NCBI GenBank assembly: GCA_016788605.1
Contig: JAEUSO010000005.1
Location: 1-33,468 of the forward strand
Reading direction: 5' to 3'
Length of the DNA: 33,468 nucleotides
Source of the DNA: Candidatus Kapaibacterium sp.
GTDB lineage: Bacteria; Bacteroidota; Ignavibacteria; Kapaibacteriales; NICIL-2
Made by a program: the position numbers and the translations under genes. A model generated the notes under the pieces. It made no database searches, was not told where the DNA came from, and was given only the letters and a program-made list of their open reading frames with translations. Position 1 is the stretch's first letter. Every line of letters begins with the position of its first letter. Shown in pieces: positions 5,008 through 30,780 of the stretch.

Positions 5008-5320
5008 GGTGTTTCATACGATGGGTGATGCTGCGCCGCAAAGATAACCTTGTATCCCCTCCGGCGCCGAAGCGACCCTCCTGCGCCGACACACGGGCGG
5101 GAAAGACCCGCTGCCTGTCGCGGTGGCTTGGGGGCGTATGGCAAGATAGTTGCCCTAATAACGGGGCGGCGTTACAGAAACGCTGCTTGGCATCCGATAC
5201 TCCCGCTGTGAACTCTCGTGTTTTCCCGTCGGGGGAAAGCGGAATGCCCGCACCTGTGCTTGTTTGCAAGAGCGAAGCGCGGGGGCGGACGTATCACCCA
5301 CACACAACGGATTCATCATC
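5008..5320. other. Divergent intergenic region between pcrA and fliJ
   Basis: 313 bases with no gene I can support. It must carry promoters for pcrA (leftward) and for the flagellar cluster (rightward). It contains a sigma-54-like element at 5139-5154 and the 12-mer GATGGGTGATGC at 5020-5031, which also occurs just upstream of proS. Confidence 0.7.
5139..5154 (+). promoter_or_regulatory. Putative sigma-54 (RpoN) -24/-12 promoter for the flagellar cluster
   Basis: TGGCAAG-N4-TTGCC matches the sigma-54 consensus TGGCACG-N4-TTGCW with the required 10-base gap between GG and GC. It differs at one base of the -24 box and at the weak last base. Transcription would start near 5165, leaving a leader of about 155 bases before fliJ. 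RpoN control of hook genes is well known in many flagellated bacteria. Caveat: the same bases form a short inverted repeat (GGCAA/TTGCC), and no RpoN gene or activator is in the window. Confidence 0.42.
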
Positions 5321-5758
5321 ATGGCAAAGCGGTTTCAGTTCCGGCTCGAGACACTACACAAGCACCGACAGCGCGAAACCGATTCGGCAAAGCGCGCTTT
5401 TGGCGAGGTGGCGCAGATGCGGATGGCAAAAGAGCGCGAGATTGACGGGCGCACCGGCTATCTGAACGCATTGCTTACCGCGCCGCCCAAAGGCAAAGTA
5501 CATGAATTGCAAGCGTACTCGTCGCATATCGCCGCCGTACGCGAACACATCGAGGTACTGAAAGCCGAGCTTGCCAACATTGCCGAAATAGAAGCAATGC
5601 GCCGCAACGAACTTACCCGTACCATGCGTGATGAAAACGTCCTTGACACGCTGCGCGATAAACACGTCGAGCAGCACCGCCAAGCACTGCTTGCCGAAGA
5701 GCAAGCTACCCTCGACGAAATCGCACTCCGCTCGAAACCGCTCCTGAGCGGCATGTAG
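5321..5758 (+). CDS. fliJ: Flagellar export protein FliJ
   Basis: 145 residues, almost entirely charged alpha-helical coiled coil, opening MAKRFQFRLETLHKHR, which matches the FliJ family start (KFxFxLexLLxxR). FliJ is a soluble component of the flagellar type III export apparatus that interacts with the FliI ATPase and escorts export chaperones. The ATG at 5321 is chosen because it gives the family-typical N-terminus; an in-frame upstream extension to 5264 has no family similarity. No fliI precedes it here, because pcrA lies upstream on the other strand, so fliJ heads this transcription unit. The order fliJ, motE-like, fliK, flgD supports the call. Confidence 0.85.
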   Translation: MAKRFQFRLETLHKHRQRETDSAKRAFGEVAQMRMAKEREIDGRTGYLNALLTAPPKGKVHELQAYSSHIAAVREHIEVLKAELANIAEIEAMRRNELTRTMRDENVLDTLRDKHVEQHRQALLAEEQATLDEIALRSKPLLSGM

Positions 5759-5832: not shown

Positions 5833-6384
5833 GTGTCGGGCAAGCAACTTCTCATCATTGTCATACTTAGTTCTCTTACGTTTCTGCTGATTGCAGGGGC
5901 GGGGGGATACGTGTATTACACCCAGCCCGAACTTCTTGGAACAACCAACCCTTATATCAAGCGCGACACAACTCAAAAGCCCGACCCCCTGAAACTTGAA
6001 GCCGAACGGCTGCAACGCACCACCGACTCGCTTGCCAAAGCAATGGCTGCCGCGAGTGATTCGCTTAGTCGCTCGGTGCAGCGCGCCGACGAGCTTGCCA
6101 TGGAACTGAAACGGTTTCACGAGAGCGAGGAAGCGGCAAAAAAACAACGGCTCTCGAACGAGGCAAAAGCCGAGCGCGACTCGATCCGGCTAAAGAAAAT
6201 GCGCTCGTTTGCCGAAATGTATGATAAAGCCGACCCTGCGGAAGTGGCAAACATCCTGAAAGAATCCGACAGCAACTATGCTGCACAGGTGCTTCAGATG
6301 ATGAAGCGCAAGAACGCAGCTAAGGTTATTGAAAAACTGCCGCCCGCAAAGGCGGTTGCCATTGCAAAAGCAGGCACGGACTGA
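5833..6384 (+). CDS. MotE-like flagellar protein (membrane anchor, coiled coil, MgtE-N-like domain)
   Basis: 183 residues. A single N-terminal membrane helix (about residues 5-27) is followed by a long charged coiled coil (about 50-125) and a C-terminal helical domain (about 125-180: EMYDKADPAEVANIL, VLQMMKRKNAAKVIEKLPP) resembling MgtE_N/FliG-like repeats. This is the architecture of MotE/YlxF proteins, which sit between fliJ and fliK in many flagellar operons and, in Helicobacter, chaperone the stator protein MotC in the periplasm. The start is GTG with a good ribosome site. It lies 74 bases after fliJ. The family call rests on architecture plus gene order rather than strong sequence signature; the role in this organism is inferred. 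Confidence 0.75.
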   Translation: MSGKQLLIIVILSSLTFLLIAGAGGYVYYTQPELLGTTNPYIKRDTTQKPDPLKLEAERLQRTTDSLAKAMAAASDSLSRSVQRADELAMELKRFHESEEAAKKQRLSNEAKAERDSIRLKKMRSFAEMYDKADPAEVANILKESDSNYAAQVLQMMKRKNAAKVIEKLPPAKAVAIAKAGTD

Positions 6385-6470: not shown

Positions 6471-9400
6471 ATGATTCAACTTGCCGACATTCTCAGCTCA
6501 CTGTTTCCCTCGCTTTCACAAGGCGCGGCAACAGGCGTTTCCACAGACACCGCCACGGCAATCCCATTCAGCGATGTGCTTGATACGGCGGAAACAGAAA
6601 TCCAAGCGGGCGAATCTCCGGCACTCTTCGGTATCGGCAACGGTATCGAAGAAGGGAGCGAATCATTGCCCTTGCCAATAGCAACACAACCTCAACACAA
6701 ACATCCTAATCCGGAACTGCTTCAAGCTGCGGGCGATGTATCCATTGCGGATGATGTTGCAGACACGGCACTGCTTTTAGATGCTGAACCGGAGACAGTG
6801 CGCGCATCCATCTTCGATGCCGAAACACTTGTTCCCGCCTACGACGGAACGGAGCAGGTTGTTCGCATGAACGACGGCGAACTGACCGTAACACCGTATT
6901 CGCCGCCCGCACCTGAAGCACCGGTGCTCCGCAACGACTACACCGAGTTCATGAATGTGATGAACACACGCAATGCCGTTGCAAACGACGGTGTAATGTT
7001 CCAATCACAGCCCGTAGTGCAATCGCTTTTCGAGCCACATCACTTTGCAGCATTTGCATCAACGCAGCAATCCATTCAACATGCAACGCCACAAGAAATT
7101 CACGTAGCCGGCAATGATGGGAAACGTGTGGAAACACCGCTGCAACAACAAGTGCACGTGACGGTGCATTCCGATGCCGACTCACTTTTGCTTCGTGCAA
7201 CGATGCCGGTTGCCATTCCTGTGGTTGCACCATCAGAACCATCACCTGAACAGTTGGCAGAGAACATATCTCCCGACACTGTTGAGTTACATCCGCAGGT
7301 ACGGCAGGCACTATCGGTGTTGCTGCACGAAGCCGCCGCAGCATCAACTGCAACGGTTTTGCCACCTGTGATTGGCTCGGTCTCGGCAAAGCCCGCATCA
7401 AAACACACATCGAATAGCACAGACGTTGTAACTGCGCCTGTTGTCGGCATCACAGTGATGACAACGATTCCCGATACCGATGAAGCATCGGTTGCAACGG
7501 TACTCAATGCCGTCCGCGATGCCGTTGTTGCCACACCCGGTTTTACTAATGCTGTTGTGAATATCGAGCTAACAACAGTCCCTGCCGAACACACAAAGGA
7601 TGGCGGTATAAACCAAAATGATAATGAAGAGGTAACGGCGGAAAGCGATTCGCAAGAACATGAGATAACGAAGAACGGGACATCGCTCATCAATCCGCCG
7701 ATGATTCAATCCATCCGGTTGGATGCGCCCGCACAGATACTCCCCACACAGATTATCAATGTACCTGTACTAACAGTTCAACAACCGTCTGCAAAACAAG
7801 AACAACATGTCTCGGCGAACGACACGGTAGTCCGTTCTACGGCTACAGTTCAGAATAGTGATACTACACGTGCTGTTGCAGAATCAACCGTTGCTATTGA
7901 CAGCAACCTGCCGGATGGCACATTACCGGAAATACAAACACAAACACCCGTACAATTTCAGCCGGATATTCCAGAAGCGGAAACTGTTCTGAACGGCGCA
8001 AACCCGCAACGGAGCTTGTTCGGCGGCGAGCATATCAGCGTTGCATTGAAGCCGATTGCCACAGCGTTTGCCACATTGATTGACTCTGCGAACTCATTGG
8101 GATTGAATGTGAAAGAGGCAGAGATACATCTGCCGGTATCGGAGCATACCGATGGTCATACACCGCAATATCATGTAAAAGATGCTGCCTTGGATGGAGA
8201 GTTACCCGTACACCAACAGGAAGTGCAACCGACAGTCAATCATACATCACTGAGCGCAGTCGTAGAGGTGCATAACAATCCAACCGGAACGCTAACCCAA
8301 CCTGCACCGGTAACAACGGAACGCACTGATACTGTGCCGTTGCCAACAGAGGACAAACGTGTTGTGTACTCTGTTGATGCGCAGGACTCAACAGATGTTC
8401 TCGTGACTTCGGCGCAACGTCACGAGCCGTTACGCCAGAGTGCAAGTACCCTGACAGAATCACCTGTCGAGATAGCCGTGGGTGACAATCAACCTGTGGT
8501 GAAGTATGAGCAACATGAGGTCAATGCGGCAAACACATCAGTCGCTGCACCTGTAAAGAATGTCGTCACGCTTCCGGCGGAAGACGAGCCGCAATCACAG
8601 GTTAAGTTGAGCGCGGTGAAACTGACGGAGACAAACATTGAAACGACCTCGGTATCTGCTGAAACCGGCGCACTGCCATTGCATAACGAACGCAATTCAG
8701 AGTACACCAGACAGGGTGTTTCTGCTGCCACTCAATACAATACGATTGATGCAAAGAAACCAGTTGCCGTTACGAAAAATGATGTCGCACCCTTTCTGCG
8801 GACTGACACGGTTCATGGTACAACCCAGTCAATGATTGCATCTGCTAACAATGTTAAAGAGAACGTGAGCAATACGACACCGTCTCTGTTTAATGATGTT
8901 CTTCGTCCGGTGCAAACGGACAGTGCTGTTCTTGATAATGGTATCGGTAAAAGTGATGCTTATGCCGCACCATCGGAATCCGTTGTTGATAATGATGCCG
9001 TGAAACAAGCGGTATCTGTTCCATTGCCCGGAAGCACGCAATCAAAGAATGAAAAAACGCTGGCGCAGTCGGTGATAACGTCCGCTCCAATCAACGAAGC
9101 GTCTGTTTTCAACAACGAAGTCCATCGCAGTGAAACACTTGTGAACGACATCGAACAAGCACAACCAACCTCACGGCAAACGCAAAACAAAAACACAATA
9201 CAACAATCAGCAATACACACCGAATCACTGAATACAACAGACATTAAGCTATCACCTGCACTGAAGGATTTGGCTGAACCTGTTGCAGGACAGAAAACGG
9301 AAATCCGTGTGCAAGAACCTGCGTTGCAACACGAAACAGCCGAAACGAATATCGAACAGAACACCATCGCTCAACAGACAAAGGTTGCTATCACACCGCG

Positions 9401-11507
9401 TTATGAGATGCTTGATAGTTCGGTTGCGTATCAAGAAGACAGTATAACTCCTGATGCTAAGAACCAAACTCACGTGTCGTTGAAAACAAGTCCTGATGGG
9501 GCTTTCAAGAGTAGTGCTATTCCTGATACTAATGATAAACCACAGACCGAAGCGGTGCAGCAATCATTCCAACAACAACCTGTTCACCGCGTTCAGGAAA
9601 TGCGCTCGCGCTCGGAACTCTTCTCGACGATGATGTCGGTTGCACCCAAGCAACCGGAGGTGCAACAGCGCGCATCCACGCTGCAAACCGTAGTAATGCC
9701 GTCACAGACACCGGCTCATCAAAGCACTGCTGTCCGTCATATCATGAATGCGGTTGCATCGCTGCGTGTTGCGGTTCAACCATCCGAAACCCCGCAACCT
9801 GTTCCGCTGCGGATAGTCAGTAATGAAGCCAGCACAGCCCTTGGCAATAAAGCAGTACAAACCGCCTCGCAAGCGGTTGATGGTGTTAGTGCGGGTGATG
9901 CTATTGCGACATCAGGTGTCGAACCTGCGCCAACAAAACAACCGGCACTTCAATCCGAACCGCTGAATGCTGAACCAATGCAGAGTCGCACGAAGGGAAT
10001 CACCGGAACGGATGAAGCAATCGCACGGCATGATACAAGCGTGGATGCGAAAGGTACTGTTATTCCACTGCGAACCGTTATATACCATCAACCTCTGCGT
10101 GAAGAGTTGTACCCCGTTCCAACTCACGTTCCCACGATAGACACAGGTAATCAGAATGAAACGGCGTCGTTGAATGCACTGACCGATTCCCGAATTACCG
10201 GGTTGTCGCCGCGTGAGAATACCTTGTTGCAACGCAAGAGTAATCATGATGCAAACAATCACGATGTAAACCAGGATACTGTCAAGCAAGAAATGCTCTC
10301 GCAACCGGAGCGTGAGTATGTTGTTCATAGCACTGCACAGGTAACGAAGAAGAGTATTAATGATATTGAACAGCCGAAACCGATTCGCCCGAACAATACT
10401 GTTGTTTTGAGTAATTCGACCAACCGCACAATGGCACAGCAAACGCATGCGCCAAGAGTGGAGATTGCACCTAGCATAACGGTGAAGAACACAGCAACGG
10501 CGGTGAAGAACGTCGAGGCAATCACAACGGATGACGTGAAGTCCGCGCAACCGCTTCAGGCAGCTTCGACATTGCAAACACATCTGCAAAGCGGGCGCAT
10601 TCAAACGGCGGTGCTTGCAGCCGAAGCGGCAGGTCTTGCAGCACGGGTATCACGTAAAGAAAATCCACAGGTACAAGAGAGCGGTGATGTCAGCGATGAT
10701 GATTTGTTGCATACTGAGGAAAGTACCGAACGCGATAGAGCTGTTGTGAATCAAACGGCATATCAATTTCCCGATAACACCGGACAGCAACAAAACGGGA
10801 ATGGCTCGCCGGATGCACAAACGCACATGAATGAGCATAACACTACAATGTCGCATTCAAGTATGACCGCGCTTGATGGCACACAATATCAGCACCCGAA
10901 CCGCATCTTCGGTTTCGCGGGAGCAGAGCCACGCTCACTACAGAATCATAACATAGAGCAGCATTTTGCAGATATGCCTGTCGTTCGTACAACGGTGGAA
11001 TCGTTCGCCGCCACAACATCGGTCGTGGTACGCAACATGCCGGCGCAGACGGGTGGTTCGGCACGGCTTGTCCTTAATCCTGAATCGCTTGGCACAGTAG
11101 TTGTCAATCTTCGCGTAGGCGAACATGAGAACCTGCTTCATATCGAAGTGGAATCGCACGAGACGCGCACAATGGTGGAAGCGCAGCTTCCGCTCCTGCG
11201 CGAACAACTCACGCAAAGCGGCATCCGAATGGAAGCCCTGAGCGTCAGTGTGAAACCGAACGAACAACAGCAGCAGCAAACAGCTCCGGCGCAGCAATCC
11301 GGCTTTACGGGCAACAACGGCACTGGCAATGGTGCAAACCAGCAGCAACGCTCCGACGACCGCGAATCCCGTGCGGCATACCTGCGCTCGGTGAACGACG
11401 ACTCGAACCCGCGCCGCAACAGCGACGGTGACCCACACCAACGCGACAGGCAGCAACGCGAGCAACGCCGGAGAATGGCGGAGAACGTCTTTGAACGCTA
11501 CGCATAA
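6471..11507 (+). CDS. fliK: Giant flagellar hook-length control protein FliK
   Basis: 1678 residues, about four times the usual FliK length (roughly 400). FliK is a secreted molecular ruler: its unfolded N-terminal part is measured against the growing hook, and its C-terminal domain switches FlhB from hook to filament export. The C-terminal Flg_hook domain (about 1525-1605) is clear: GGSARLVLNPESLGTVVVNL, then LHIEVESHETRTMVEAQLPL and LREQLTQSGI. It is followed by a Gln/Asn/Arg-rich tail. Residues about 30-1500 are low-complexity, rich in Thr, Val, Gln, Asn, Glu and Pro; reading through I found no Cys or Trp, as expected for an unfolded exported ruler. The interior is more AT-rich than its neighbours. 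Start at ATG 6471 after GGACG. One uninterrupted frame, so no assembly break is evident. Confidence 0.9.
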   Translation: MIQLADILSSLFPSLSQGAATGVSTDTATAIPFSDVLDTAETEIQAGESPALFGIGNGIEEGSESLPLPIATQPQHKHPNPELLQAAGDVSIADDVADTALLLDAEPETVRASIFDAETLVPAYDGTEQVVRMNDGELTVTPYSPPAPEAPVLRNDYTEFMNVMNTRNAVANDGVMFQSQPVVQSLFEPHHFAAFASTQQSIQHATPQEIHVAGNDGKRVETPLQQQVHVTVHSDADSLLLRATMPVAIPVVAPSEPSPEQLAENISPDTVELHPQVRQALSVLLHEAAAASTATVLPPVIGSVSAKPASKHTSNSTDVVTAPVVGITVMTTIPDTDEASVATVLNAVRDAVVATPGFTNAVVNIELTTVPAEHTKDGGINQNDNEEVTAESDSQEHEITKNGTSLINPPMIQSIRLDAPAQILPTQIINVPVLTVQQPSAKQEQHVSANDTVVRSTATVQNSDTTRAVAESTVAIDSNLPDGTLPEIQTQTPVQFQPDIPEAETVLNGANPQRSLFGGEHISVALKPIATAFATLIDSANSLGLNVKEAEIHLPVSEHTDGHTPQYHVKDAALDGELPVHQQEVQPTVNHTSLSAVVEVHNNPTGTLTQPAPVTTERTDTVPLPTEDKRVVYSVDAQDSTDVLVTSAQRHEPLRQSASTLTESPVEIAVGDNQPVVKYEQHEVNAANTSVAAPVKNVVTLPAEDEPQSQVKLSAVKLTETNIETTSVSAETGALPLHNERNSEYTRQGVSAATQYNTIDAKKPVAVTKNDVAPFLRTDTVHGTTQSMIASANNVKENVSNTTPSLFNDVLRPVQTDSAVLDNGIGKSDAYAAPSESVVDNDAVKQAVSVPLPGSTQSKNEKTLAQSVITSAPINEASVFNNEVHRSETLVNDIEQAQPTSRQTQNKNTIQQSAIHTESLNTTDIKLSPALKDLAEPVAGQKTEIRVQEPALQHETAETNIEQNTIAQQTKVAITPRYEMLDSSVAYQEDSITPDAKNQTHVSLKTSPDGAFKSSAIPDTNDKPQTEAVQQSFQQQPVHRVQEMRSRSELFSTMMSVAPKQPEVQQRASTLQTVVMPSQTPAHQSTAVRHIMNAVASLRVAVQPSETPQPVPLRIVSNEASTALGNKAVQTASQAVDGVSAGDAIATSGVEPAPTKQPALQSEPLNAEPMQSRTKGITGTDEAIARHDTSVDAKGTVIPLRTVIYHQPLREELYPVPTHVPTIDTGNQNETASLNALTDSRITGLSPRENTLLQRKSNHDANNHDVNQDTVKQEMLSQPEREYVVHSTAQVTKKSINDIEQPKPIRPNNTVVLSNSTNRTMAQQTHAPRVEIAPSITVKNTATAVKNVEAITTDDVKSAQPLQAASTLQTHLQSGRIQTAVLAAEAAGLAARVSRKENPQVQESGDVSDDDLLHTEESTERDRAVVNQTAYQFPDNTGQQQNGNGSPDAQTHMNEHNTTMSHSSMTALDGTQYQHPNRIFGFAGAEPRSLQNHNIEQHFADMPVVRTTVESFAATTSVVVRNMPAQTGGSARLVLNPESLGTVVVNLRVGEHENLLHIEVESHETRTMVEAQLPLLREQLTQSGIRMEALSVSVKPNEQQQQQTAPAQQSGFTGNNGTGNGANQQQRSDDRESRAAYLRSVNDDSNPRRNSDGDPHQRDRQQREQRRRMAENVFERYA

Positions 11508-11540: not shown

Positions 11541-12236
11541 ATGGCAGAAACAATCAGCCCGACAACGCAAAAACTCTTCGACAGCTTGGCTCCGAAAAAC
11601 GAGGAGAAAAAAGTATCGAAGGATATGGACAAGGATGCGTTCCTGAAACTGATGATTGAGCAGATGAAAGCGCAGAACCCGCTGAACCCAAGCGGCGGCT
11701 ATGAACAAATGGCGGCGCAGTTGGCACAGTACACATCGCTTGAACAGTTGCAGAACCTGAATACAACCATGACAAGTTTACTGCAATCGAATACATCGCT
11801 TGTGCAAAGCGTGGGGCAGCAGTCGCTCCCCGCCATGATGGGAAAAACTGTCCGCGCCAATGCCAACGGTATCGGCTTCGACGGCAGCAACTCCGTGCAG
11901 TTCGGCTATGAACTGCCATTACAGGCAGGTTCGCTGAAACTCTCGATTAAAGACAGCGCAGGAAATGTGGTGCGTGTCCTTGAACCGCCCTCCATCGGTG
12001 TCCGCTCCGGCGAGAACTCGGTTATGTGGGACGGGCGCGACAGCAAAGGTGCAACAGTACCGAAAGGTGCATACACCTTCGAGATGGAAGGCAAGGACTT
12101 GCAAGGCAAAGACCTCCGTATTACGCCGATGGTGCGCGGCACGGTGACAGGCGTGCGCTACCGCGAGAACGGTGCGTTCGTGGTGCTGAACGGAGCGGAA
12201 ATTCCCGCTGGATCAATCACCGAACTGCTGAACTGA
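11541..12236 (+). CDS. flgD: Flagellar hook-capping protein FlgD
   Basis: 231 residues, typical for FlgD. The protein caps the growing hook and is needed to polymerise FlgE, then is discarded. The N-terminal FlgD signature is present (DKDAFLKLMIEQMKAQNPLNP, about 30-50, and YEQMAAQLAQYTSLEQLQNL). A Tudor-like/Ig-like C-terminal region follows, with MMGKTVRAN, the Ig-core GENSVMWDGRDSKGATVPKG and GTVTGVRY. The common DPTNP motif reads NPLNP here. It begins 33 bases after fliK and is presumably co-transcribed with it. Confidence 0.93.
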   Translation: MAETISPTTQKLFDSLAPKNEEKKVSKDMDKDAFLKLMIEQMKAQNPLNPSGGYEQMAAQLAQYTSLEQLQNLNTTMTSLLQSNTSLVQSVGQQSLPAMMGKTVRANANGIGFDGSNSVQFGYELPLQAGSLKLSIKDSAGNVVRVLEPPSIGVRSGENSVMWDGRDSKGATVPKGAYTFEMEGKDLQGKDLRITPMVRGTVTGVRYRENGAFVVLNGAEIPAGSITELLN

Positions 12237-12422: not shown

Positions 12423-12803
12423 ATGGACATCAACGGAGTACAACTACCTTTTGTACCGCTTGGAGGAGTAAGCGGGCTACAGCGAACACCGAACACGGTG
12501 CAGCCCCCGCCTGCAAAACCCTTTGCCGAAATACTTCAGGAAGAAGCCGGCAAAATCAGGTTCTCCGCCCACGCGCAAAGCCGCATGACAAGCCGCGACA
12601 TGGCATTGGACGACAGTGACATGAAACGGTTGGAAAATGCGGTGTCGAAGGCAGACGAAAAGGGCTCCCGCGATTCGCTTGTGATGCTTCGCGACATGGC
12701 ATTCATCGTCAGTGTCCGCAACCGCACGGTTATTACCGCGCTGAAGGGCGAACAGGCGATGGAGAACGTCTTCACAAACATTGACTCGGCGGTAGTGGCA
12801 TAA
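12423..12803 (+). CDS. TIGR02530-type flagellar operon protein
   Basis: 126 residues. The C-terminal three quarters carry the hallmarks of the family: IRFSAHAQSRMTSRDM, then LENAVSKADEKGSRDSLVML and AFIVSVRNRTVITALKG. The family is found between flgD and flgE in many bacteria, which is exactly the position here; its biochemical role is not established, though a part in hook assembly is assumed from context. The N-terminal 40 residues are Pro-rich and probably flexible. It lies 186 bases after flgD, a gap long enough to hold a promoter. Confidence 0.85.
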   Translation: MDINGVQLPFVPLGGVSGLQRTPNTVQPPPAKPFAEILQEEAGKIRFSAHAQSRMTSRDMALDDSDMKRLENAVSKADEKGSRDSLVMLRDMAFIVSVRNRTVITALKGEQAMENVFTNIDSAVVA

Positions 12804-12920
12804 CGCGCCGTGGTAGCGCAGAATGCCCGACACAGGGTTGGACCTCGTCCGGTTGCTTGACGTACTAAGCAGCCGGCAGGAGACCCCACCGAAACAAGCA
12901 TCCCCGAACGACAGAGGGCG

Positions 12921-13208
12921 ATGCCTACCCAATACCACATGCGTCCCGAAGCGACGCAGTGTTCTATCCCAATTTTCAGAAGCAACAAAGGGCTTCGCAG
13001 CCATATACTACGGTTATGGTTTGTGGAGGAAACCGTACCCGTACTTGGTGACGGCACATGGTATGGCGCATTCCCGCTCCGGCGGAGGATTCACCATATC
13101 AATGCTACGCGCCTGGAGGAACGTACTGCACGGATGCAGGGCATACTCACGGATATACGAGCTAAGTCATCAGTGGCGCAAAGCCCTTTGATTTGTATGG
13201 CATTTTAG
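12921..13208 (+). CDS. Possible small protein of unknown function (95 aa)
   Basis: I do not recognise this. The frame starts at ATG 12921 after an AGAGGG-like ribosome site and encodes 95 residues; the middle stretch WFVEETVPVLGDGTWYGAFP followed by a basic helix-like segment reads like folded protein, while the first 30 and last 15 residues do not. A different frame looks more protein-like just before it, so a frameshifted remnant is also possible. No membrane helix or signal peptide. The position before flgE suggests nothing known. Confidence 0.25.
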   Translation: MPTQYHMRPEATQCSIPIFRSNKGLRSHILRLWFVEETVPVLGDGTWYGAFPLRRRIHHINATRLEERTARMQGILTDIRAKSSVAQSPLICMAF

Positions 13209-13346
13209 CGTATCACCACAGTGTGCGCAACAAGAAAGAACCGTGAAGATGATTGGTGACAGCAACCCCGCATAACACTGCAAGAAGCAAGGACAACGCA
13301 TCCAGAAAATCGAATAACAAAATATGTGTTTCAATTATCTATGACC

Positions 13347-13360: not shown

Positions 13361-14686
13361 ATGGCATTACTTCGTTCTTTAACGTCGGGCACAAGTTCGC
13401 TGAAAGCCCATCAGCAACGGTTGGACATTATTTCTAACAACATTGCCAACGTCAATACATCTGGCTACAAATCCAGCGAGGCGCTGTTCTCGGAACAGTT
13501 CGCGCAAAGTTTGGCTGGCGGTGTCGCTCCGTCGAATATCTCGGCGGGCGGAACAGGCGGGTTGAACCCGATGCAGATTGGTTTGGGTGTGAAACTTGGC
13601 GCAGTACGCACCGATTTCACACAAGGGTCTATCCGCACTACCAACCGTGCCCTCGACCTTGCCCTTTCCGGCGATGGATTTTTTGCCCTGAAACAAAACG
13701 GACAGAGTTTATACACGCGCTCAGGTTCGTTCTCGCTCGACCGTGCGGGTAATCTTGTTGATTCTTCAACAGGATCATTTGTGCAAGGGTATAACTTCAA
13801 GAAAGATGCAAACGGTCGTCCTATAAAAGACAGTAGCGGTACAAACATCCTCGAGCGTCAGTTGACGAATGTAAATCTGAACCTAGCCCAGTCGAACCCG
13901 CGACAGACGGAACAAGTAAAACTAGCAGGTAATCTAAACGCTTCAATGCAAACAGGCGAGAATGCGCAAACATCTATTACAGTGTATGACAACATCGGTA
14001 ACTCGCATGTGATGCAACTGACATTTACCAAGTCGGCAACCGCAAATCAATTTTCTCTTAGTGCTACGCTAGATGGTAATGCAGTAACACTGCCTACAAC
14101 TGCAACAACTGTTACGTTTAATGCCGATGGCTCGATGAACACTCCACTTAATTTCAGCGTATCGGGAACAGATTTGAATACGTCGCTCGGCGGCAGTTCA
14201 ACAGCATTTGATACAACAAAAAATATGACAGTAACATTGGCACAAGCGGGTAATCTGTTTGCCGGTCTTACACAATATGCGGGACAAAATTCGGTAACAG
14301 CGTATGAGCAGGACGGTTATACGGCTGGCAATCTCTCGCGGTTAAGCGTTGATAAAACTGGAAGGGTCATCGGTGCATTTACAAACGGGCAGTCGGAAGT
14401 GCTTGGTCAGGTAGCAGTAGCAAAATTTGTGAACCCGGGCGGTTTGGTGAAAGAAGGAAGTAATACATTCAGCTTGTCGCCGAATAGCGGCTTGCCGAAT
14501 ATCGGAACAGCCACCGAGATTTTCCCATCCACCTACATGCTCGGCAGCTCGCTGGAAGAATCGAACGTGGATTTGACGGAGCAGTTCACCGATCTGATTT
14601 CAACGCAACGTGCGTTTGAAGCGGCATCGCGGACTATCACAATCAGCGACCAGTTCTTACAAGAAATCAATCAGTTGAAGCGATAA
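13361..14686 (+). CDS. flgE: Flagellar hook protein FlgE
   Basis: 441 residues, the subunit of the flagellar hook, the universal joint between basal body and filament. The N-terminal rod/hook signature is clear (MALLRSLTSGTSSLKAHQQR, then LDIISNNIANVNTSGYKSS). FlaE-type and D1 segments follow: GDGFFALKQNG, SLYTRSGSFSLDRAGNLV. The C-terminal helix ESNVDLTEQFTDLISTQRAF ending in DQFLQEINQLKR closes the D0/D1 bundle. The central domain (about 175-310) is Thr/Ser/Asn-rich and variable, encoded by noticeably more AT-rich DNA. Last gene of the visible flagellar unit; no flbD follows. Confidence 0.95.
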   Translation: MALLRSLTSGTSSLKAHQQRLDIISNNIANVNTSGYKSSEALFSEQFAQSLAGGVAPSNISAGGTGGLNPMQIGLGVKLGAVRTDFTQGSIRTTNRALDLALSGDGFFALKQNGQSLYTRSGSFSLDRAGNLVDSSTGSFVQGYNFKKDANGRPIKDSSGTNILERQLTNVNLNLAQSNPRQTEQVKLAGNLNASMQTGENAQTSITVYDNIGNSHVMQLTFTKSATANQFSLSATLDGNAVTLPTTATTVTFNADGSMNTPLNFSVSGTDLNTSLGGSSTAFDTTKNMTVTLAQAGNLFAGLTQYAGQNSVTAYEQDGYTAGNLSRLSVDKTGRVIGAFTNGQSEVLGQVAVAKFVNPGGLVKEGSNTFSLSPNSGLPNIGTATEIFPSTYMLGSSLEESNVDLTEQFTDLISTQRAFEAASRTITISDQFLQEINQLKR

Positions 14687-15070
14687 GAATAATGTAACGG
14701 GCGCAGAGTAACATCTGCGCCTCCGGTTACAGATAATGACACAGTTGAGTAGCAACCATGAACGGAAGAACGGGTTCGGAACTCGTGTGCGACAGATGAC
14801 AGAGGTTCATGGTGATGGCAGTGCGGAATCCCGCCACGGACGGCGCATAACGGTTCGGCTGCACATCAAGAGACAGATTTGGTTTGGTATATATGTATCA
14901 GGGATGATAGGAAGACAGTCACGGATGGCAAAGAAGCGCACCGGCATTAACGGAAACGAACGGATTCGTTACACCGCGCCGGAGCCGTATCGGTTGGAGA
15001 GAATCTGCTGCCCACAGCATAGCATCACGGATGATGTGTGTTGGGGCAGCAGTTTTTTTTTGTATGATGC
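14687..15070. other. Intergenic region after flgE
   Basis: 384 bases between convergent flgE and proS. An open frame at 14736-15074 runs through the terminator hairpin and its T-run, shows no domain and is not accepted as a gene. The only supported element is the terminator at 15005-15061. Confidence 0.65.
15005..15061 (+). terminator. Rho-independent terminator of the flagellar unit
   Basis: CTGCTGCCC at 15005-15013 pairs with GGGCAGCAG at 15044-15052, a perfect 9-bp GC-rich stem extended imperfectly by ACA/TGT, followed at once by nine T (15053-15061). It ends transcription from flgE ten bases before the proS stop codon on the other strand. Confidence 0.88.
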
Positions 15071-16540
15071 TTAATACGCTTTTGCAAACAGGACGCGCTG
15101 TTTCGAGGGTGCGCCGCTAAGAACACACACACCGTCTTCATTCGCCGCGTCAAGCGGAATGCAGCGGATGGTTGCCTTCGTCAATTCCTTGATACGCTCT
15201 TCCGTTTCGCCCGTTCCGTCCCAATGCGCGCTGATAAAACCACCCTTTGTTTCCAGCACTTCTTTGAACTCATCGAACGAGTTCACGTGGGTAATGTGTG
15301 CGTCGCGGTACTCTTTGGCGCGGTTGTACAGATTCTGCTGAATCTCGTCGAGCAACGCACGGATAATGCCGCTTGAATCCGCCATCGGATAGGTTTGCTT
15401 TTCCTTCGTGTCGCGCCGTGCGATTTCCAGCGTGCCGTTCTCTATATCGCGTTTGCCGATTGCAACGCGCACAGGAACACCGCGCATTTCGTACTCGGCG
15501 AACTTGAAGCCGCTTCGTTTGGTTTCGTCGGTGTCAATATGCACGCGCACACCGTGGCTGCGGAGTTCTGCGGCAAGGCGGTCGCATTCTTCAATCACCG
15601 GCGATACCGCATTCGGTATGGGAACGATGACCACTTGCATCGGTGCGAGTTTAGGCGGCAATACCAAGCCCGCATCGTCGCTATGCACCATAATCAATGC
15701 ACCGATAAGCCGCGTGCTCACACCCCACGATGTAGCCCATACGTACTCTTGCTGATTGTCTTTATTCAGATATTTCACCTCGAATGCCTTCGCAAAATTC
15801 TGTCCCAGAAAATGCGACGTTCCCGCTTGCAACGCTTTGCCGTCCTGCATCAATGCTTCGATGCAATATGTGTCTTCCGCTCCGGCAAACCGCTCGTTAG
15901 CGGATTTCACGCCCTTGATAACAGGCATCGCCATCACGTTCTCGGCAAAATCGGCATACACATCAAGCATCGTAACTGTTTCGGCGATTGCTTCCTCTTT
16001 GGTGGCGTGTGCGGTATGACCTTCCTGCCAAAGGAATTCCGCTGTGCGGAGGAATGGTCGGGTACGCATTTCCCAACGCACAACATTCGCCCATTGGTTG
16101 ATAAGCAGCGGCAGGTCGCGGTAGGATTGAATCCAATCGCGGTAGGTGTTCCAGATAATCGCCTCGCTTGTTGGGCGCACAACAAGTTCTTCCTCCAACT
16201 TCGCTTCGGGATCAACCATCAGTTTGCCCGGACGTGATGCGTCGTTCTTCAAGCGATAGTGTGTGACCACCGCGCATTCTTTCGCAAACCCTTCAGCGTT
16301 TTTCTCTTCCGCCTCGAATAAACTTTTCGGTACAAAAAGCGGGAAGTAGGCGTTCACATGACCTGTGGCTTTGAAGCGCAGGTCAAGCGCGTCGCGCATA
16401 TTTTCCCAAATGGCATAGCCGTAGGGTTTGATAACCATGCAGCCGCGAACTGCGCTGTTATCGGCAAGGTTGGCGTTCTTCACAATATCCAGATACCACG
16501 CGGAGTAATCCTCGGCGCGGGGTGTAATGACTTTCGACAT
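15071..16540 (-). CDS. proS: Prolyl-tRNA synthetase, archaeal/eukaryal-type (short form)
   Basis: 489 residues. The enzyme charges tRNA-Pro with proline using ATP. Class II core motifs: motif 1 region [25 protein letters not shown] (about 122-130), motif 2 [20 protein letters not shown] (about 153-172) with EGH, motif 3 [18 protein letters not shown]. The anticodon-binding domain follows ([30 protein letters not shown]). It lacks the long editing insertion of the E. coli type and ends in Tyr (LFAKAY), both features of the short archaeal/eukaryal-like form, here without the usual four-Cys zinc site. ATG at 16540 is chosen because [20 protein letters not shown] is the family N-terminus; an upstream in-frame ATG at 16585 lies inside a palindrome. 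Single gene, divergent from the TlpA-like gene. Confidence 0.93.
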
Positions 16541-27091: not shown

Positions 27092-27604
27092 TCACGCTCC
27101 GTGTGTTGGTGCTTCCGGTTGAGCGGAGATATTGGCGGAGATATTGGCGGAGATACTGGCGGAGAGTCCGGTGCTGCCGAAGCCGCCGCTTCCGCGCTCT
27201 GTTTCGTCCAATGATGCAACTTCCGTCCATTCGGCGCGCTCGTGGCGGGCAATGACGAGTTGGGCGATGCGGTCGCCGCGATTGACGGTGTAGTCCGCTG
27301 CGCCGAAGTTGGCAAGGATAACGTGCAGTTCGCCACGGTAGTCGCTGTCAATCGTGCCGGGCGAGTTCAGGCAGAACACGCCGTGTTTGGCGGCAAGCCC
27401 GCTGCGCGAACGCACCTGACATTCGTAGCCACGGGGCACGGCAATGGCAAGGGCGGTGGGTATCATTGCCACTGTTCCGGCGGCGATGGCGACGGGCGTT
27501 TCGATCGCTGCGTGGATGTCCATTCCGGCTGCGCCCTCGGTTGCATAGGCGGGCAGGGGCAGGTCGGTGAATGCGGGGTTTGTTCGTGTGATGTTGATGG
27601 TCAT
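27092..27604 (-). CDS. dut: Deoxyuridine triphosphatase (dUTPase)
   Basis: 170 residues. Hydrolyses dUTP to dUMP and pyrophosphate, keeping uracil out of DNA and feeding thymidylate synthesis. All five trimeric dUTPase motifs are present: I AGMDI (26-30), II RSRSG (65-69), [16 protein letters not shown] (80-92) with the catalytic Asp, IV RGDRIAQ (109-115), [11 protein letters not shown] (137-146). It carries an unusual 24-residue tail after motif V, encoded partly by a 12-bp tandem repeat that yields [15 protein letters not shown] 27604 is chosen because [10 protein letters not shown] begins the first strand; the upstream in-frame extension to 27715 lacks similarity. Coupled to the downstream glycosyltransferase. 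Confidence 0.94.
27123..27165. repeat. 12-bp tandem repeat in the 3' end of dut
   Basis: Three copies of GCGGAGATATTG (third with one change, ATACTG) at 27123-27134, 27135-27146 and 27147-27158, plus a 7-base partial copy. The unit is a multiple of three, so gain or loss would change the dUTPase tail length by four residues without a frameshift. Confidence 0.88.
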
Positions 27605-28524: not shown

Positions 28525-30780
28525 TTACTCTTTCACAAACGGAATGCTTACGGGAGTTCCCTGTGCGGTGGTAATGCGGATGAAATAATATCCGGCGGGT
28601 AATGCGCTGATATTGATTGGTGTGCCGGATATAACATTGCCCCGAAGCATCGAGATGCCAAGCAGGGAGCATACGTCGTAGTGCGAGCCATCCTCCATAC
28701 CGCGTACCGTGATGCTTGTGTGTGCGGGGTTGGGAACGACGCTCCATGCCGGTTGTTGCGGCTCGCCCTCAACATCGAGAATCGAGTAATCAACAAATGA
28801 CGCAAGGAAGATGTCGCTGCCGCCTGCATTACTTTGCTGCCCGCCGCCACTGACGGGAAGGTTGGTGCTTGTTGTTGTGCCGCACAGTAAAATCGTATTA
28901 TCGTTCAAGCGCATCAGACCTGCGCCGCGGTCGTCGCCGCTACCGCCGAAGAGAACAGAGGCGATGCGTTGTTTGCCGTCCGCTTTATAGTATCCCATGA
29001 AGGCATCGTAGCCGCCTGCGGGTGCGGGGCTATCTTTGGGGAACAGCGGGAAATTCGCGCTGTTGCTCATGCCGGTAACAAAGACATCGCCGTTGGGTGT
29101 TGCAGTAATACCTGTGCAACGGTCGTCGCCGCTGCCGCCTTGGTATGTCCCCCAAATGCGCTTTCCAGAGTCAATGTTGAACGATGCAATGAAGCCGTCG
29201 TTGATGCCTCCGCCGAAATCCGTCTGTGCTCCGTCTGCTGTTGCTATAAAACGATCGGGAGAAGTTCCTGTATTAGTGTACCCGATAATAATGACTGACG
29301 ATGACGTTAGCGCAATACGGGTTGCATAGTCGTATCCTTTACCGCCATAAAATCTACCCCACTCTCGTGTACCTTGTGCAGAAAACTTTACAAGAAATCC
29401 ATCAAAAAACTCAACTAAATCATTGCCTTCTCCAATTGTAGTAGAGATAATATTATTGGCATTATAGCTTGCTGTAGTTCCGCATATAAAAATTGAACCG
29501 TTGGGTGCTGCTATAATTCCACCGCCATACTCCAAATCATCAGAACCATAGTATGTTGACCATTGTAAAGCTGATAGTGTTGGACTCAAGACAATGATAA
29601 ATGCATCGCTTGCACCACCTTGATTTTTTTGATGTCCATTAGCATCTATGTTGTCACTAAATGTAGTACCCGTGCATGCAATATTACCATTAGGCATAAT
29701 GCAAACGTCGGTACACGCATCAATTGAGTTACCACCGATATACGTTGAGTTCTGAATCTGACCTGATGCTGAGTTAAGCGTAGAAAGAAATCCGTCGGTG
29801 TTACCACCCAGGAATGTGGATTTGTATCCGCTTCCTTGAATAAAATTTGATTTTGAATTAGTTGTACCACATACAGCAACAAGTGTATTAGATAATGCAA
29901 TGCCAGTTGCAGCATCATCACCTGCGCCGCCGAAATACGTAGCCCAGATGCGGCTTCCGCGCGAATCGAACTTTGCGATAAACGCATCGCGCCCGCCTTG
30001 CAATGATTGTTGATGCGTCCCTGCTGTTGCAGGAAAGTTTGCACTTGTTGTAACACCGCACACATACATGGATGTGCCGTCACCTGTTGCAGAGGTTGCA
30101 GAGTCAAGCGACGCTCCGCCGAAGTACGACGCGGATGTTGTGGGTGTAATAAAATTGAGTGCGACTGTCACGCCATTATCTGTTGCATCCCATGCGAAGT
30201 TTGGCTGCTGAACATTATCCGGTGTTGCAGTTGTAACAATGCTTGATGGTATGGGAACGCTCACCACACCGTTTATGTCAAGTGCGCCGTTCACGATGGC
30301 GAATGATGGTGATGACGGGCGCAACGCAAGAGCGGATGTTGAGTGAATATTTAAACCGTTTGTTGTGATGCCGATGCTGATTGTTTTGTTGCGTTGTGTG
30401 TGGCGGAACACGAGTGTTGTGTATGCTTCCGATCTATGCAGCGTGCCGCGTTCGTCGTAACGGTTGATGATACCGTTTGCACCTGTAGCTGCGAGTGTGT
30501 AGGCACCGTCGGCGAAATCGAAATCCGTTCGTGTAACTGTTGCGCCGCGCTGCACGGCAAAGGATATTCCATTCGTGCGAATGCCAACGACACCCTGCGG
30601 CAGCGAAGCAATGTAGAGCGGAACACCATGTGCTGATGCGCCTGCTGCGCGTACCTGTCCTGCGTTACGAACGAAGACCGGCATCGACTGCATGACGCGC
30701 TGCGCCAATGCATCGGGTGTGCAGACAACAAGAGAAACAAGAAGAATTGTGTAGAGGCGGACTGCGGTTCGGAGCATCAT
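28525..30780 (-). CDS. Secreted SBBP beta-propeller protein with T9SS sorting domain
   Basis: 751 residues. A signal peptide (MMLRTAVRLYTILLVSLVV, cleavage near DALA) precedes a domain with FVRNAGQ that recalls a reduced DUF7948 start. Seven SBBP-type repeats follow, each with an aromatic-Gly-Gly and acidic core: SYFGGASLDSAT, TYFGGAGDDAAT, TYIGGNSIDACT, TYYGSDDLEYGG, RFYGGKGYDYAT, TYQGGSGDDRCT, LFGGSGDDRGAG. Seven fits a closed propeller. The last about 85 residues form a type A T9SS C-terminal sorting domain (WSVVPNPAHTSITVRG ... INISALPAGYYFIRI). It should be exported to the cell surface. Ligand unknown. The middle third (about 29230-29900) is encoded by much more AT-rich DNA. Confidence 0.9.
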   Translation of the reverse strand: MMLRTAVRLYTILLVSLVVCTPDALAQRVMQSMPVFVRNAGQVRAAGASAHGVPLYIASLPQGVVGIRTNGISFAVQRGATVTRTDFDFADGAYTLAATGANGIINRYDERGTLHRSEAYTTLVFRHTQRNKTISIGITTNGLNIHSTSALALRPSSPSFAIVNGALDINGVVSVPIPSSIVTTATPDNVQQPNFAWDATDNGVTVALNFITPTTSASYFGGASLDSATSATGDGTSMYVCGVTTSANFPATAGTHQQSLQGGRDAFIAKFDSRGSRIWATYFGGAGDDAATGIALSNTLVAVCGTTNSKSNFIQGSGYKSTFLGGNTDGFLSTLNSASGQIQNSTYIGGNSIDACTDVCIMPNGNIACTGTTFSDNIDANGHQKNQGGASDAFIIVLSPTLSALQWSTYYGSDDLEYGGGIIAAPNGSIFICGTTASYNANNIISTTIGEGNDLVEFFDGFLVKFSAQGTREWGRFYGGKGYDYATRIALTSSSVIIIGYTNTGTSPDRFIATADGAQTDFGGGINDGFIASFNIDSGKRIWGTYQGGSGDDRCTGITATPNGDVFVTGMSNSANFPLFPKDSPAPAGGYDAFMGYYKADGKQRIASVLFGGSGDDRGAGLMRLNDNTILLCGTTTSTNLPVSGGGQQSNAGGSDIFLASFVDYSILDVEGEPQQPAWSVVPNPAHTSITVRGMEDGSHYDVCSLLGISMLRGNVISGTPINISALPAGYYFIRITTAQGTPVSIPFVKE

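Follow-up and report, generated by a model that had tools for sequence, protein, structure and literature searches.

The 33,468-nucleotide stretch of DNA analysed here (the window) carries a fliK gene (6471..11507, + strand) that encodes, in a single frame, a protein of 1678 residues. The frame is real and coding, and it is a true fliK; the length of its product is extreme in comparison with model organisms and common in much of the order to which it belongs. Judged from its sequence, the protein would best be read as a canonical FliK ruler and switch with an over-extended spacer, a reading to which we assign a probability of about 0.6.

The giant fliK gene and its flagellar setting

As the earlier note had claimed, the gene is one continuous frame: it starts with ATG and runs for 1678 codons without an internal stop, within a stop-to-stop frame of 1724 codons whose length has a chance probability of ~6e-34 at the given base composition. 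The other frames (two sense and three antisense) contain 41-97 stops each, and GC content by codon position (0.62/0.44/0.48) is coding-like throughout the gene. No Cys and no Trp occur among the 1678 residues, where the enzymes of the window would lead one to expect ~19 and ~22, respectively, in agreement with the remark that the interior is free of both.

The identification as FliK with an intact C-terminal switch domain, made beforehand from the letters and the open reading frames, is supported by the domain, its fold, both termini and the operon. Residues 1522-1601 (11034..11273, +), which include the motif LNPESLGTVVV, match the Pfam family Flg_hook (PF02120; E 6.6e-15), and a profile built from 49 C-terminal regions of related proteins picked out a single strong match in the PDB, 2RRL (E 2.3e-17), the C-terminal domain of FliK from Salmonella. 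For the final 180 residues, AlphaFold gave a model with a mean pLDDT of 81, mostly >90 inside the switch domain, which Foldseek placed closest to 2RRL (E 2.1e-6), followed by the injectisome ruler PscP (5CUK; E 9.5e-4); no NCBIfam FliK model matched the protein. An identity as an injectisome ruler (SctP/YscP) was rejected because the neighbouring genes are flagellar and no needle gene cluster accompanies them. Downstream of the switch domain, a Gln/Arg/Asn-rich tail (11274..11504, +) ends in a conserved FERYA (11490-11504), to which the terminal GVDIFA of the E. coli protein corresponds; a terminal motif of this kind closes 38 of 68 FliKs from relatives, compared with 0.2% of shuffled tails. 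At the other terminus, residues 1-45 (6471..6605, +) form a putative export-signal region, comprising a hydrophobic start, LADILSSLF, that in alignment is common to the nearest relative, G002, and an FxxxΦ gate-recognition-like motif, FSDVL (F33 to L37; 6567-6581, +). A motif of the FxxxΦ type lies within residues 16-60 in 61 of the 68 relatives, compared with 24% of shuffled interiors. Early flagellar substrates require this motif together with a hydrophobic N-terminus, the latter having been tested for FliK (PMC8983047); the N-terminus described here fits such an early-substrate signal, and export is predicted.

The gene order fliJ–motE-like–fliK–flgD–TIGR02530–flgE is kept in nearly all relatives examined. 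In the window, fliJ (5264..5758, +) was recognized by Pfam (FliJ; E 1.7e-12) and its conserved position, the hook-cap gene flgD (11541..12236, +) and the hook-protein gene flgE (13361..14686, +) likewise by Pfam and conserved operon position, and the TIGR02530 flagellar operon protein (12423..12803, +) by an NCBIfam score of 107 bits (cut-off 83.2). The MotE-like membrane/coiled-coil protein (5833..6384, +), with an MgtE_N/FliG_M-like C-terminus, owes its label to its architecture, no model having scored above cut-off; it precedes fliK in nearly all relatives and shows weak similarity to the collar protein FlbB. The mechanical flgE frame begins at a TTG at 13253, 36 codons upstream of the probable true ATG (MALLRSLTSG...). 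Two small ORFs, one between flagellar genes (12823-13191) and one after flgE (14736-15074), have no Pfam or NCBIfam match, and the first, which has no detectable relative in the other loci, may not be a gene. The remainder of the window includes an ABC transporter of the bacteriocin-exporter type with an N-terminal C39 peptidase domain (287-2596), an SBBP beta-propeller protein that bears a type A sorting domain of the T9SS (TIGR04183, above cut-off; 28525-30780), a domain pointing to a lineage of the Bacteroidota type, and, within the minus-strand dUTPase gene, an in-frame array of 3.6 copies of a 12-bp unit (GCGGAGATATTG; 27123-27165).

The genome also encodes an FlhB with the NPTH autocleavage motif (...ITNPTHYAVAL); a flagellin N-domain occurs in four of its proteins, and the one with the weaker match is probably FlgL. 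Only one Flg_hook domain was found in it. On the favoured reading, the giant protein is the FliK ortholog belonging to the one flagellar system detected in this organism. Many relatives have a second, weaker Flg_hook protein (L059-L069) of ~270-745 residues, mostly ~410 and often ending in ...NIVV, which was not found in the window's genome; at the one locus examined (L063; 8839-10074, minus strand), its neighbours are not hook genes.

FliK length among relatives

The comparison covered 68 FliKs with their surroundings, extracted from the same class as the window's organism; within the order, the Flg_hook domain is present in 73 of 123 genomes. A scan of genome contigs with FlgD gave a single distant hit. 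FliKs of at least 1000 residues (giants), reaching 2408 residues, were found in 24 of the 68 class members and are spread over about eleven families, about seven of them in the order and four elsewhere in the class, and nine complete FliKs are longer than that of the window. The length is therefore a trait of the clade and no oddity of one genome. The counter-case named in the earlier note, that relatives have ordinary FliKs, applies to the sister genus of the same family (443-460 residues) and fails for the nearest relative, G002 (1732 residues), and for most other families of the order. We found no earlier report of FliKs longer than 1000 residues in the literature searched, which excluded most subscription journals.

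Across the class, FliK spans 261-2408 residues, a spread of about seven- to nine-fold in which the shortest lengths hinge on the choice of start codon and a clear short group lies at ~330-480 residues, whereas the products of neighbouring genes are constant (436-586 residues for FlgE and 226-294 for FlgD). On a tree built from neighbouring proteins, FliK length shows strong inheritance (lambda 1.0, K 1.6, permutation p < 0.0005), but on a logarithmic scale its rate of change exceeds that of FlgE and FlgD length ~70-100 times. After phylogenetic correction, FliK length increases with genome size (slope 0.63, t = 3.3, 64 genomes), the control with FlgD length giving t = -1.0, and the shortest FliKs belong to streamlined genomes of ~2 Mb; the same pattern would be expected from drift of a nearly neutral spacer. 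FlgE length was rejected as a co-varying trait, as its link with FliK length is not significant (t = 1.8). The presence of FlhF (polar placement) was uninformative as a divider of long from short FliKs, being found in most giants and missing in one giant family; in the window's genome it appears below cut-off only.

The spacer interior and its evolution

The spacer, or ruler, interior (residues ~61-1505; 6651..10985, +) shows little sequence conservation, even against the nearest relative. It is rich in T, V, A, S, Q and P, with 7.5% Pro and 2.5% aromatic residues. It had been described as low in complexity, which proved to be compositional bias only: all 25-residue windows of the protein reach at least 2.9 bits, and a repeat search found no internal repeats. 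A low-complexity or repeat origin of this particular FliK was rejected on these two tests, while many relatives do have repeats. Over all FliK interiors, Cys amounts to 0.05%, a level like that of FlgE, compared with 1.14% in the enzymes of the window, and such scarcity along the whole interior fits export of the entire chain. AlphaFold gave no confident structure for residues 1-700 (pLDDT 26.6), which, with two sequences only, is weak evidence of disorder. The interior is probably a fast-evolving, unfolded spacer.

Four short islands of the interior are common to G002: residues 339-368 (ASVATVLNAV...NIEL; 7485..7574, +), matched by eye to QSVRNTIADV... in that relative; residues 527-552 (ATLIDSANSLGLNVKEAEIHL; 8049..8126, +); residues 1041-1060 (9591..9650, +), around a heptapeptide, RSRSELF, that is identical in both; and residues 1469-1485 (DGTQY...GFAG; 10875..10925, +), which in both proteins sit 65-66 residues before the LxPExLG motif. 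The first of these, together with residues 326-332, is tentatively predicted as strand-helix-strand, at an AlphaFold confidence <50. Between the window's genome (G000) and G002, the islands span 1531 and 1598 residues in total, with sub-intervals differing by -44, +74, +267 and -228; a conserved spacing is suggestive and does not count as evidence, as sign permutation gives ~2 in 8.

The dN/dS of the interior in pairs of giants is 0.45-0.62, as against 0.02-0.1 in FlgD, FlgE and the MotE-like protein and 0.03-0.32 in the FliK C-terminal domain. In the pair G049/G015, identity is 96.5% for FlgE and 29% for the interior of FliK, a level at which the alignment is uncertain. At the level of sequence, the stretch between the ends of FliK is thus shown to be nearly free to change. 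As for its length, no credible compensating indels were found across 13 pairs, the indels behaving like a random walk, so that there is no sign of length being held constant; stabilizing selection on FliK length through such indels was rejected. The length conservation seen in saturated pairs (2051 versus 2000 residues at 29% identity) is apparent and explained by few indels. Between G057 and G030, species of one genus, FliK length steps by 394 residues.

Internal repeats are present in 11 of the 24 giants. They are lineage-specific, with units of ~53-94 residues (84 in G015, 60 in G023, 57 in G366 and six copies of 53 in G051), and a motif search found no module common to the giants, the units being unrelated between lineages. 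Because repeats of this kind recur in 11 of 24 giants, growth of the spacer by local duplication of internal segments, with the trace then lost through fast substitution, is likely. A FliK of <1000 residues (G098) has repeat units of 42 residues. The FliK of G029 (L033:1-1416) starts at a contig edge with a six-residue repeat (PVVDSK/PVVDQK), perhaps the mark of an expansion, driven by the repeat, at which the assembly broke.

Hook length, rival readings and known systems

FliK would act as a type-III-exported tape measure combined with a switch, each molecule presumably passing along the inside of the growing hook. In a hook that is still short, the spacer would be on its way through and the switch domain would not be held near FlhB; once the hook is long enough, the switch domain would pause there and export would flip to filament proteins. 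The export switch is known to fire when the C-terminal domain of FliK lingers at FlhB (PMC13344023; PMC6972891). Salmonella hooks measure 42-135 nm with FliKs of 363-785 residues, rising linearly by 0.2 nm per residue, and insertions add hook length proportionately, no particular sequence being required (PMC6126814). A spacer of ~1500 residues would accordingly be expected to make a hook several times longer than that of Salmonella. The Salmonella slope, extrapolated two-fold past the longest ruler tested (785 residues) to reach 1678, would give the window's organism a hook of ~310-330 nm, and of ~530 nm at most were FliK fully extended; the same extrapolation would give the sister genus ~65 nm. 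Written as ~55 nm + 0.2 nm x (residues - 405), it would predict ~145 nm at 860 residues, 310 nm at 1678, 455 nm at 2408 and ~65 nm at 450. An extraordinarily long hook, as the earlier note had suggested among other options, is the best-supported functional reading, though only by this extrapolation. As a tentative proposal, to which we give somewhat less than an even chance, the ruler in this class may be a freely growing spacer (~260-2400 residues) that hooks follow, from ~50 to >400 nm, with ~300 nm or more in the window's organism and the value above in its sister genus. As Salmonella motility already drops at FliK lengths of at least 520 residues (PMC6126814), a 300-nm hook would need to be stiffer or to go with a different flagellation.

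This loss of motility, the lack of compensating indels and the correlation of length with genome size make the main rival a FliK that switches export while its interior is compact, coiled, looped outside the hook or clipped by proteases, so that the hook stays ordinary and protein size drifts near-neutrally. The near-neutral evolution of the interior sequence and the random walk of its indels agree with such slack, as does the step between G057 and G030, which would otherwise imply a jump in hook length of ~60-80 nm. However, inserts in Salmonella extend the hook in proportion whatever their sequence, it is difficult to envisage a slack chain inside a narrow channel, length has a strong clade memory (K 1.6), and the exclusion of Cys over the whole interior is what an exported molecule would show. 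We regard this alternative as less likely than not, though one to be reckoned with. A second, extracellular job, in which FliK is released around the cell as an adhesin, spacer or scaffold, is far less probable. In its favour, known systems do send FliK out of the cell, some giants exceed 2000 residues and a few short islands are shared with G002; yet these islands are few, short and unevenly spaced, the interior is hardly conserved between species, the repeat units are unrelated across lineages and the purely flagellar operon has no extra genes. The adhesive role suggested earlier thus finds no support, and a secreted adhesin was rejected, Pfam and NCBIfam having revealed no adhesin or other second domain and the window's FliK having no repeats. 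An assembly or gene-fusion artefact, conceivable in a genome fragmented into 606 contigs, has a negligible chance for this gene and is already refuted for the clade, given that G002 has the same gene within a 100-kb contig, that giants occur in the same operon in 24 independent genomes and that the codon-position signal extends along the entire gene.

The main value of the giant FliK, read as a canonical ruler and switch with an over-extended spacer, lies in its place within a natural series on which the ruler model could be tested. The main basis of that model is a set of Salmonella proteins engineered to 310-785 residues. The clade offers FliKs from ~330 to 2408 residues in a constant operon, with an at least five-fold contrast between sister genera, so that the ruler law could be probed three-fold past the tested range, or an uncoupling of FliK and hook length detected. 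If hooks are truly at least 300 nm long, the rule that good swimming requires a length near 55 nm would not be general.

Compared with known systems, the protein shares with the FliKs of Salmonella and E. coli (PF02120; 2RRL) the fold of the switch domain and its LxPExLGxVxV motif, the N-terminal FxxxΦ motif, the terminal [VF][DE]x[FY]A, a Cys-poor interior, a gene adjoining fliJ and an FlhB partner with NPTH. It differs in length, with 1678 residues against 375 in E. coli and 405 in Salmonella (PMC6126814), the roughly four-fold excess that had been claimed; in its interior of ~1500 residues, which has no similarity to theirs; and in the genes downstream, flgD-TIGR02530-flgE here versus fliLMN there. 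The injectisome rulers SctP (YscP and PscP, 5CUK) have the same ruler-plus-switch plan, and the switch domain of PscP is the second fold match; they serve a needle rather than a flagellar hook, whereas the window's FliK lies outside any injectisome context. Natural YscP variants differ by repeats. The engineered Salmonella FliKs with YscP insertions (up to 785 residues; PMC6126814) likewise combine a long spacer with ordinary ends and gave proportionally longer hooks. These are laboratory constructs of half the length with helical inserts, whereas the interior described here is Pro-rich and mostly predicted to be unstructured.
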